From the NCBI GenBank assembly GCA_018697205.1, contig JABHTG010000138.1:48500-112499 (forward strand): a stretch of 64,000 nt of DNA, given 5' to 3'. How positions within the stretch are numbered: position 1 is the first letter of the stretch; each line of letters opens with the position of its first letter. The notes beneath the pieces were generated by a model. It was given only the letters and a program-made list of their open reading frames with translations. It was not told where the DNA came from and made no database searches. Position numbers and translations under genes: made by a program. This document shows positions 26,234 to 29,976 of this stretch, piece after piece. The DNA is from Nitrospina sp. Its GTDB lineage: Bacteria > Nitrospinota > Nitrospinia > Nitrospinales > VA-1.

Positions 26234-26493
26234 ATAACTATTACTCCCCATTTTAATCATCTCCCTTTTTAGATTGTCCATTAGGTAATTACTTATACGA
26301 ACCCCCCTTTTAACCTTATTTTTCTACATTTTAATTATCAATATTTTTTTCTCAATATAAATATCTAAACTTTGCCTAATCTTTAATTGATAATACATTT
26401 GACAATTAATTCATTAAATAGTAAATTATTAACAATTATCGTAGTAATTCAATTGTTTGTTAATACTAAAATTTATTTATTTAAGGTGAAAAA

Positions 26494-27030
26494 ATGGATG
26501 TTGATAAAAGTGCAGTAATTTTAGTCGGTCATGGTGGAATACCGAGTGATTTGCCAAGTGGAATTGTTGAAAAATTTATGAGGTTGCATAAATCAAGGAT
26601 TAAAGCTGGCACGGAGATTACTAGTGAAGAGATAGAACTTGATAACACTATTCGTAAATGGGAAAGAACCCCAGAGACAGATCCTTATAAGTCTGGGCTG
26701 GAAGATTTGGCAACTCATATGGAGCCTCTTTTGAAAAACTTTATTTTAAAAACTGCTTATAACGAATTTTGTTACCCGACAATAGAACAAGCCATTGAAG
26801 AGTTAGCTTCAACAAATAATGTATCAAAAATAATTCTGGTGACAACGATGATAACTAGAGGGGGATCACACTCAGAGCAAGAAATCCCGGAAGAGTTAGA
26901 AGAGTTACGAAAAAAATATAATAAAATAGAGATTCAGTATGCATGGCCATTCGATATAGATACTTTTGCATTATTTATGTCAACGCATGTCAAAATCCAT
27001 GATCATTTAACGGTAGTCGATAGTAAGTAG
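26494..27030 (+). CDS. CbiX/sirohydrochlorin-chelatase-like protein
   Basis: VILVGHGGIPSDLP...KIILVTTMITRGGSHSEQEIPEELEEL. Confidence 0.75.
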   Translation: MDVDKSAVILVGHGGIPSDLPSGIVEKFMRLHKSRIKAGTEITSEEIELDNTIRKWERTPETDPYKSGLEDLATHMEPLLKNFILKTAYNEFCYPTIEQAIEELASTNNVSKIILVTTMITRGGSHSEQEIPEELEELRKKYNKIEIQYAWPFDIDTFALFMSTHVKIHDHLTVVDSK

Positions 27031-27053: not shown

Positions 27054-27575
27054 ATGAATTTAGTTAAAATGCATAATTCGATTTTTTTTAAACCAATTAG
27101 TTTTATGAAAAGTGGTTTTTTATTTTTCACTTTTCTCATAATAATTTTTGTCAATCCTGTTTTAGCTTTAGATTGGAACGATGATGATTGGGTTCAAGGA
27201 GGCTGTCCTCCGGATATTTTTGGGACATGGGTTTCTAACGATGTTGACCAAGAAAATATAAAAACTTTAAAAATTAATCATAACAGAATTAGGATTTCTA
27301 ATAGCTTATCTCTTGATGAAGATTACTCTTTCGATAAAAATGATTTGGTATTAGGTAAAAAATTTATAGAGATTAATCTTACGTCTGGTTTAAATCATAA
27401 TGAAAATAGTTTCTATTTAAAAATACGGCCACATTTGATTGTGTTAGCTAATAATTTTGATCTTATGAATTCACCTACTACTAGTTGTTTTATTAAAGTA
27501 TTTAAGTTTAAGTCAAAAGAAAACTCTAAGTTTGGCAGGTATTTTGATTGGGAAATATATAAATTAAAAAAATAG
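27054..27575 (+). CDS. Exported hypothetical protein
   Basis: Signal peptide-like N-terminus FLFFTFLIIIFVNPVLALDW. Confidence 0.6.
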   Translation: MNLVKMHNSIFFKPISFMKSGFLFFTFLIIIFVNPVLALDWNDDDWVQGGCPPDIFGTWVSNDVDQENIKTLKINHNRIRISNSLSLDEDYSFDKNDLVLGKKFIEINLTSGLNHNENSFYLKIRPHLIVLANNFDLMNSPTTSCFIKVFKFKSKENSKFGRYFDWEIYKLKK

Positions 27576-27666: not shown

Positions 27667-27748
27667 GGGGAACTTAGGTGGGGCCTGGGGGCCCATTTAG
27701 TTTAAAGCCTTCTGTCAGGCATCTCAAAACTAAGCACCTATGTTCCCT
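27667..27748 (+). ncRNA. Candidate structured RNA element E1 (three-way junction)
   Basis: P1 GGGAACTTAGGTG/CACCTATGTTCCC (one mismatch), P2 GGGCC-TGGG-GGCCC, P3 TTAGTTT...GCCT-tctgtc-AGGC...AAACTAA. Confidence 0.5.
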
Positions 27749-27790
27749 TGGTTTTCATTTTTGTTATTTTTTTTATTTTAGTTTAAGGTT

Positions 27791-28258
27791 ATGAAAAAAA
27801 AATACTTAGTAATTATTCTCTTTTTAATTTTAGTTGGTGCTGTTTCATTTAATAAAAATACTAAGACTGCTAAGACTCCAAATGACTATGTATCGTTAGG
27901 AAATAATAAGGGTATAAAAGGAGATCACTTTGGAGCTAGTAAAGCTTTTAAAGCAGCTATAGATATAGACCCTTACTATATTCCTGCCTACTTGGGACTT
28001 GGCATTTCCTACGGAAATTTGGGAAAGAATGAAGATGCAATTCAAGTCCTAATGCAAGGAATTAATTTGGATAAGAGTTATGACTATGTTCCTCAAATGC
28101 AAATGAGTATTGCTTCTATTACCTACGAAAAAATCAATGATGCAAAATTGGCAGTCACATTTTTAAAAAAAGCTCTACAGAATTATACAGACCAGGGAAA
28201 TTATGCTGGTGTAATAATGGCTGCAGAGAAGATAAAACAATTTGCTCCAGTTTCTTAA
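27791..28258 (+). CDS. TPR protein with N-terminal hydrophobic anchor
   Basis: TPR-like GDHFGASKAFKAAIDIDPYYIPAYLGLGISYGNLGKNEDAIQVL. Confidence 0.8.
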   Translation: MKKKYLVIILFLILVGAVSFNKNTKTAKTPNDYVSLGNNKGIKGDHFGASKAFKAAIDIDPYYIPAYLGLGISYGNLGKNEDAIQVLMQGINLDKSYDYVPQMQMSIASITYEKINDAKLAVTFLKKALQNYTDQGNYAGVIMAAEKIKQFAPVS

Positions 28259-28313
28259 CATACTTTTGTTTCTTGTAATAATTAGTCTTAAGTAGTTAGA
28301 GAGATTATCAATT

Positions 28314-28856
28314 ATGTTTAGGCTTGTTAGTTTAAGTTTTTTGCTTGTTGGTATCTGCCAGTTTTTTTATGCTTGTGCCACCATTCCTGCTAGAGAAGAT
28401 CCCCCTCTTCAGGTTGTTAACAAAGTGGACATTAATAAATACCTTGGTAAATGGTATGAAATTGCGCGATATCCCAATTGGTTTCAGGAAAATTGTTATG
28501 GGGTGACTGCCGAATATGAATTTGTTAATGATAGCGTGATAAAGGTAGTTAATAAGTGTAGGGATAGGCTCTTAAATGGGGAAATAAGAGAAGCTGTAGG
28601 AACAGCTCACATAACGGATTCTTCTAATAATGCAAAGCTTAAAGTAACATTTCATTGGCCATTTTATGGAGATTATTGGATTATTGATCTAGGTGAAGAT
28701 TATGAATATGTAGTAGTGAGTGAACCAAAACGACAGTACCTTTGGATTCTAAGTAGAAAACCAAGTATGGAGACTCCTAAATACAATAAAATCTTAGAAT
28801 CTCTTGCAAAACGAAACTTTGACATCGCTTTACTAAGTCTTACACCTCTAACGTGA
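28314..28856 (+). CDS. blc: Outer-membrane lipocalin
   Basis: Lipobox FFYAC; DINKYLGKWYEIARYPNWFQENC...YWIIDLGEDYEYVVVSEPKRQYLWILSRKP. Confidence 0.92.
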   Translation: MFRLVSLSFLLVGICQFFYACATIPAREDPPLQVVNKVDINKYLGKWYEIARYPNWFQENCYGVTAEYEFVNDSVIKVVNKCRDRLLNGEIREAVGTAHITDSSNNAKLKVTFHWPFYGDYWIIDLGEDYEYVVVSEPKRQYLWILSRKPSMETPKYNKILESLAKRNFDIALLSLTPLT

Positions 28857-28907
28857 GGAATATGTATTTTTTTATTTTTTTGAAGCCTGAAGAAATTTTA
28901 TGACATA

Positions 28908-28994
28908 ACGAAACTCCGGATAACGGCCTGGTGGCTTTCTATTTCTTTTGATACTTCCCTAAGGTTTTATCAGACTGGATAGCCGGAGTTTTGT
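28908..28994 (+). ncRNA. Candidate structured RNA element E2 (three-way junction)
   Basis: P1 ACGAAACTCCGG/CCGGAGTTTTGT (one wobble), P2 GGCC-TGGT-GGCT, P3 CTAT..TGATA/TATCA..ATAG. Confidence 0.45.
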
Positions 28995-29053: not shown

Positions 29054-29374
29054 TTGTTAACGCTAAAATTTATTATGTATTCTAAAATAAATAATCAATA
29101 TGCAGTGTTGTGCTATTCAAAAAATGCTGCTGATTGCTACCAAAAAGGAGAGTATTTTGATACTGAAGAAGAAGCAAAAGATTGGGTAGAAAATGAGTGC
29201 TGGATTTTTTCAGGAGAGGGGTGGATTTGCCTTAATTGTCATGACGCGTTTATGGGTAGTCTTACTTCACATCGTAAAAAACAGGGGAATGGACTTGATG
29301 GTGTTGATGGAAATATAGAGGCACATGACGGTTTAGATAATGATTTAGAGACAGGAATTGATATCGTAAGATAA
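29054..29374 (+). CDS. Hypothetical Cys-containing protein
   Basis: Cysteines in ENECWIFSGEGWICLNCHDAFMGS; no family recognised. Confidence 0.55.
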   Translation: MLTLKFIMYSKINNQYAVLCYSKNAADCYQKGEYFDTEEEAKDWVENECWIFSGEGWICLNCHDAFMGSLTSHRKKQGNGLDGVDGNIEAHDGLDNDLETGIDIVR

Positions 29375-29412: not shown

Positions 29413-29976
29413 ATGAAAAAAAATATACCATTAATAACAACTTTTATTTTAAGCGCTACATTATTTTTTACTTCTCTAGCTATTGCTAATACAAAAATTA
29501 ATAGCTCTGAAGTTCTGAAAATTGGTAAAGAAATTCCTAATGCGCAACTAAATAGATTTGCTCAATCTAATATTAAAATAGATGACCTGAAAGGAAAAAT
29601 TAAGATTATCAGTGTTGTACCACAATTGAATACACCGGTATGCGATAAACAAACACATCAGTTTAGTGAAACAAATGGAGGGTTGGATAAAGATATTGAC
29701 ATAATTACTATAAGTACAAATACCGCGCAAGGCCAGAAGAGCTTTGCTGAAAAAGCGAACATCAGTAACTTGATTTTTTTGTCCGATAGTCCTGAGTTCA
29801 ATTTTGGTAAAAGTACTGGTCTGCTAATAGAGGGAATGAATATGCTAAGAAGAACCGTTTTAGTTCTTGATGAGAAAAATATTATTCGGTATGTTGATTT
29901 TGTTCCAAGAGGTGGACTTCCAAATATTAAAGGAGCATTAAATGCAGCGAAAGAAGTCTTGTTGGGGAATTCTTAA
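29413..29976 (+). CDS. tpx: Thiol peroxidase Tpx with predicted signal peptide
   Basis: VVPQLNTPVCDKQTHQFSE (peroxidatic Cys), LSDSPEFNFGKSTGLLIEGMNMLRRTVLVLDEKNII. Confidence 0.9.
   Translation: MKKNIPLITTFILSATLFFTSLAIANTKINSSEVLKIGKEIPNAQLNRFAQSNIKIDDLKGKIKIISVVPQLNTPVCDKQTHQFSETNGGLDKDIDIITISTNTAQGQKSFAEKANISNLIFLSDSPEFNFGKSTGLLIEGMNMLRRTVLVLDEKNIIRYVDFVPRGGLPNIKGALNAAKEVLLGNS

Follow-up and report, generated by a model that had tools for sequence, protein, structure and literature searches.

The intergenic elements E1 and E2 of a Nitrospina sp. genome belong to one family of three-armed structured RNAs, the reality of which we regard as very probable. Both lie within the window, the stretch of 64,000 nucleotides analysed here. 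About 30 relatives of E1/E2 are found in other Nitrospinales genomes, with one to three in each. The family is new, within a known kind of cis-acting structured mRNA element, and stands out by its branching, by its link to a single gene set and by the copying of its members between gene junctions. The elements are almost always located at gene ends or between genes in operons of the light-responsive regulator type LitR/CarH, and thus probably set transcript ends or the amount of the next gene that is made. Nitrospinota, which are major marine nitrite oxidisers, thereby gain an undescribed and well-supported structured RNA; a literature search found no structured-RNA study of such kind for this phylum.

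For E1 and E2 alike, folding predicts a closed three-way junction composed of a P1 helix of 12-13 bp, a P2 hairpin of the form GGCC-UGGK-GGCY and a longer P3 arm (Table 1). The predictions confirm the coordinates, the helix order and the P2 hairpin proposed in a first-pass annotation, which was also correct about the lengths of the elements, their shared orientation and their bracketing of a TPR-lipocalin gene pair. The fold of E1 (-36.5 kcal/mol, z -3.4) was matched by 2 of 200 dinucleotide shuffles, and that of E2 (-32.3 kcal/mol, z -4.2) by none of 200. The GCCUUCUGUC motif in the inner hairpin of the E1 P3 arm is retained in congeners. A GCCUUCUG/GGGGCUUC-like motif, located at 27707-27720 in E1, recurs in the apical P3 of otherwise different elements, and no pairing partner was found for it. 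All genes neighbouring E1 and E2 are encoded on the same strand as the elements.

Table 1. Features of the E1/E2 region (positions in the window)
Feature	Position	Strand	Remarks
Slot of congeners' LitR/CarH gene, empty here	26234..26493	+	260 nt, between SerB and CbiX; LitR present in G001 and G002
CbiX-family gene	26494..27030	+	Pfam CbiX; first gene of the cluster here
"LDW" secreted/lipoprotein-like orphan gene	27054..27575	+	Upstream of E1; conserved neighbour
E1 three-way-junction RNA	27667..27748	+	Between "LDW" lipoprotein-like gene and TPR gene; fold, model R1, orthologues in three congeners
E1 P1 5' strand, GGGGAAC U UAGGUG	27667..27680	+	Predicted fold; partner 27735-27748
E1 P2 hairpin, GGGCC-UGGG-GGCCC	27681..27694	+	Predicted fold; family-wide conservation
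E1 P3 arm	27696..27734	+	27696-27703 with 27727-27734; inner hairpin bears GCCUUCUGUC
E1 P1 3' strand	27735..27748	+	Predicted fold; U-rich sequence next
TPR protein gene	27791..28258	+	Between E1 and lipocalin gene
Blc-type lipocalin gene	28314..28856	+	Upstream of E2; Pfam Lipocalin_2, E=9e-45
E2 three-way-junction RNA	28908..28994	+	Between lipocalin gene and C13/Tpx genes; fold, model R3, G001 orthologue
E2 P1 5' strand	28908..28919	+	Predicted fold; partner 28983-28994
E2 P2 hairpin, GGCC-UGGU-GGCU	28925..28936	+	Predicted fold; family-wide conservation
E2 P3 arm	28939..28979	+	Predicted fold and family comparison
E2 P1 3' strand	28983..28994	+	Predicted fold; U-rich sequence next
C13 small Cys-containing orphan gene	29078..29374	+	Downstream of E2, upstream of tpx
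Thiol peroxidase-like redoxin (Tpx) gene	29413..29976	+	Pfam Redoxin/AhpC-TSA

The proposal that E1 and E2 form one RNA family is borne out by compensatory changes in orthologues and by covariance-model searches. The similarity of the P2 hairpins, put forward earlier as family evidence, holds up in part: the exact sequence GGCCTGGKGGCY occurs at the E1 and E2 sites only in the 2.48 Mb genome, but with one mismatch allowed there are eight matches (E1 and E2 included) versus ten for a reversed control pattern, and P2 alone is therefore weak proof of a family. Likewise, P1 and P3 had been called entirely different, which is true of E1 versus E2 but not family-wide, where a clear P1 consensus, GGGAAUCCGG...CCGGAUUCCC, is apparent; the P1 of E1 is a diverged version of it.

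Two models tie the elements together. Model R1 was built from E2 and from relatives in other genera that lie close to the same genes, leaving out E1 and including the E1 of a congener; it recovered E1 at E=1.7e-5 genome-wide, plus more than 20 further matches at E<0.01. Model R3 was trained on 14 elements, all from other genera. In the whole genome, R3 found E2 as the sole match (E 1.2e-9) and did not list E1, while in the window it ranked E2 first (50.5 bits) and E1 second (24.3 bits), ahead of the next site (16.0 bits). Owing to its absence from the whole-genome list, E1 is considered a diverged member, the assignment of which leans on congeners. Orthologues with compensated changes occupy the same junctions in G001 (E1 and E2) as well as in G002 and G004 (E1).

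Covariation was assessed in an alignment of 32 rows, one of them a reverse-strand match to the same element. Double changes affected 18 of the 20 pairs, and doubly changed cells numbered 99 versus 26.2 in shuffles, a comparison that uses model-fitted alignments and shuffles blind to relatedness. In 93.7% of the alignment cells the bases paired, compared to at most 58% once the partners were slid by one column. All three helices contributed (P1 10/11 pairs, P2 3/4, P3 5/5), with controls far lower, and the first set of 20 sequences and the set of 14 sequences from other genera agree on covariation. In P1 and P3 together, G-U pairs outnumber A-C mismatches by 21 to 4, an excess that favours selection on the sense RNA over a DNA palindrome.

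The view that the family had been unnamed was upheld, since E1 and E2 match no entry in Rfam. More broadly, no Rfam 15 family reached its gathering score in the window or at the elements in the loci of 12 relatives, nor did any match at E values up to 10. A tRNA or tmRNA identity was not found either. The literature on Nitrospina, LitR clusters and three-way-junction motifs, with subscription papers partly covered, yielded no description of the element.

Matches at E <= 1e-3 occur in 16 of 77 genomes of the phylum Nitrospinota, with one to three copies each. Many copies had been expected in the genome of origin, which holds exactly two, E1 and E2; the supporting copies came from other species. 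More diverged members, in which P2 is longer, are present in G012, G018, G022, G049, G064 and G065, and the 16 element-bearing genomes are thus a lower bound. A search with model R2 and filters off identified no clear element in small loci of further LitR-bearing genomes, and larger regions showed the diverged group at operon ends. A GTDB-wide collection scanned with a strict core pattern gave nothing convincing outside Nitrospinota. The exact pattern was present on five contigs, three of which are from Nitrospinota; the other two, from Bacteroidota (without a P1 partner) and Lachnospiraceae (inside lspA, despite 29.5 bits), look like chance matches. In view of the latter, lone matches of 20-31 bits were distrusted without context. 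As far as these sequence searches reach, the family appears to be confined to Nitrospinota.

Across Nitrospinales, the elements accompany a recurrent gene set, the members of which were named by Pfam and similarity. The set includes a MerR protein with B12-binding domains (LitR/CarH), CbiX, "LDW", ZNR, a TIGR01777-type epimerase, an NmrA-type SDR and DUF4149, and also lipocalin, Tpx and a block of desaturase, amine oxidase, DUF1365 and CFA synthase genes. LitR/CarH-type regulators are AdoB12-bound and lose DNA binding when light splits AdoB12, and related Pseudomonas regulators act on photolyase, SDR, FAD oxidoreductase and fatty-acid genes (PMC9758184). The set may represent one light regulon in Nitrospinota. 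LitR is present in 15 of the 16 element-bearing genomes versus 17 of 61 others (Fisher 1.9e-6, in a test that ignores phylogeny). Near-full-length LitR copies contain the motifs W-x9-EH (14/14) and [DE]xHxxG (12/14). Two LitR-like proteins (L093:6191-7141, minus strand; L092:2267-3226, plus strand) kept W-x9-EH and lost the DxHxxG histidine (DSYNLG, EPYTLG), and hence their cobalamin binding may be altered.

Several small proteins of these loci lack a Pfam match. The "LDW" family (..LDWNDEDW..GCP..) is conserved beside CbiX within the LitR gene set throughout Nitrospinales, and C13 is characterized by the motif ENECWIFSG.GWICL.CH..FMGSL.SHR. ZNR (C..C..KYCSHECQ; e.g., L084:9848-10168, minus strand) is a small zinc-ribbon-like protein, often encoded directly upstream of an element.

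The genome of E1 and E2 is the only one among the 16 without LitR. Its contig is unbroken at the empty slot, and a promoter-like sigma-70 sequence (TTGACA-17-TAAATT, 26399-26427) now immediately precedes CbiX. A search of the window for traces of LitR came up empty, and the rest of the assembly, which is 85% complete, yielded no LitR gene either. Both elements were nevertheless kept, which indicates that they can outlast the regulator.

In every copy with an unambiguous upstream gene, that gene runs in the direction of the element and almost always belongs to the LitR set; in nearly all copies it is LitR, CbiX, LDW, ZNR, TIGR01777 or lipocalin. Exceptions, identified by eye, are weak matches after a Pal-like gene (G068) and a PepSY-like gene (G026). 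The upstream stop codon is often 6-60 nt away, and at two loci the gene end and the element overlap. Downstream, a second member of the set usually follows, starting 33-85 nt away in most cases, and one copy in G002 is followed by an unrelated hydrolase gene. In six genomes (G012, G018, G022, G044, G049, G065) the downstream gene is convergent and the element fills a gap of 82-126 nt; a convergent gene also lies downstream of the weak G068 match. Judging by such operon-end sites, it is the upstream transcript, and not the start codon of a following gene, to which the element is tied.

The flanks of the elements are biased in composition, with 5.2 A per 10 nt before (versus 3.7) and 4.8 T per 10 nt after (versus 3.5; p about 0.001 each, against a background 20-60 nt away that is partly coding). 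The bias is strongest in the own genus, where 6-10 of the 10 nucleotides after five of six elements are T. The U-tract is weak or absent in many members (G009, G016, G019b), and thus the family as a whole does not appear to conserve plain intrinsic termination.

Taken together, the family and its fold, the bias towards sense RNA, the association with one gene set and the place after co-directional genes form the observed basis of a proposed role. Tentatively, and with a confidence that falls just short of even, we favour a cis-acting RNA between cistrons or at 3' ends, an attenuator or end-stabiliser that sets the cistrons on the regulator side apart from those on the effector side and probably carries a factor or ligand at its conserved junction. 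The element would most likely act in cis on the mRNA. The upstream segment (the regulator/CbiX/orphan part) would be terminated or protected by the P1 domain, which is stable and branched, and only part of transcription or of the mRNA would continue into protective genes further down, namely lipocalin, DUF4149, Tpx and desaturase/CFA synthase. The conserved junction core would probably bind a protein or a small molecule, and this binding would tune the read-on. Several observations speak against this reading: many members have a weak U-tract or none, the conserved junction sequence exceeds the needs of a terminator, and the own genome keeps both elements although LitR is lost from its slot.

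A riboswitch, i.e., an aptamer for a small molecule such as adenosylcobalamin or a photo-oxidation product that controls the downstream gene, is unlikely. In its favour, conservation is concentrated at the junction (GAAAA, GCCURGUGGC, UUCCAG...CUGGAUA), as in aptamers, a B12 photoreceptor with W-x9-EH and [DE]xHxxG intact in most copies goes with the gene set, and the consensus GGGAAUCCGGUGAAAA resembles the core of cobalamin riboswitches. Yet, the six operon ends with convergent genes do not fit control of a downstream gene. Moreover, several elements start 6-10 nt past a stop codon and end about 33 nt before a start codon, and such short gaps to both genes leave little room for an expression platform. 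Neither the cobalamin models (RF00174, RF01482, RF01689) nor any other Rfam model matched the elements at E 10. More doubtful still is the specific idea that the junction works beside the B12 photoreceptor LitR/CarH as an RNA sensor for either adenosylcobalamin or a signal of photo-oxidation; if true, an RNA sensor and a protein sensor would both gate one light-response gene set.

With the same low probability as the riboswitch, the elements might be bound by one of the proteins that the gene set encodes, resulting in autoregulation. ZNR is a candidate RNA-binding partner, as it precedes the element in G004, G011, G012, G018, G019, G022, G023, G044, G049, G064 and G065, but it is not near the element in the own genome, G009, G013, G027, G043 and G045.

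Some copies have moved between junctions. G023a and G023b, at different junctions of one genome, share 93% identity in the element and random identity in the flanks, and G019a and G011a, at different junctions in two genera, are 87% identical. Copies this similar at unrelated junctions imply that the module was copied or converted as a unit, though within the gene set. That the family is a small DNA element, mobile or REP-like, which landed between genes and has no regulatory function is nonetheless improbable, since there are just one to three copies per genome, restricted to the sense strand of a single gene set, orthologues with compensatory changes are retained in the own genus, and visual inspection showed no duplication of a target site. 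A REP-type repeat with many dispersed copies was rejected on copy number and gene-set restriction, even though copying from junction to junction was observed. Finally, an inverted-repeat DNA operator for LitR or another MerR-type regulator would account for the strong co-occurrence with LitR, but is very improbable given that G-U pairs outnumber A-C mismatches, that compensatory changes occur in three nested helices, that the sites lie at the ends of operons instead of at promoters and that both elements persist in the own genome, which has no LitR.

The preferred cis-acting RNA would link post-transcriptional control to a B12-dependent light and photo-oxidative gene set. As a short, defined element with about 30 natural variants, it offers a handle on the split between regulator and effector expression and on a possible RNA part in the light response.

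The E1/E2 family shares traits with several known systems. Like its members, integron attC sites separate co-directional genes and are short palindromes, imperfect and variable in sequence; the outer arms of the family follow GGGRA...UYCCC and there is no cassette array. The arms (GGGGAAC...GTTCCCT, ACGAAAC...GTTTTGT) do not conform to the R'' RYYYAAC and R' GTTRRRY boxes, and an attC identity was rejected. Three-way-junction aptamers (purine, TPP, and cobalamin, considered for GGGAAUCCGGUGAAAA) likewise combine conserved junction nucleotides with variable helices, whereas the E1/E2 family is found at operon 3' ends and matches no Rfam model at E 10. Stabilising hairpins of the puf-operon type and REP/BIME elements resemble the family as structured RNA between probably co-transcribed genes, with copies spread between junctions, but the E1/E2 family is limited to one to three copies per genome, a single gene set and one lineage, and has a conserved core. 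Intrinsic terminators and attenuators have in common with it a stable, GC-rich stem past the stop codon, A-rich sequence before and T-rich sequence after in many copies, and a place at convergent operon ends; in contrast, the E1/E2 family does not conserve the U-tract, and its members, 67-111 nt long, are branched three-way junctions in which the junction sequence is conserved.
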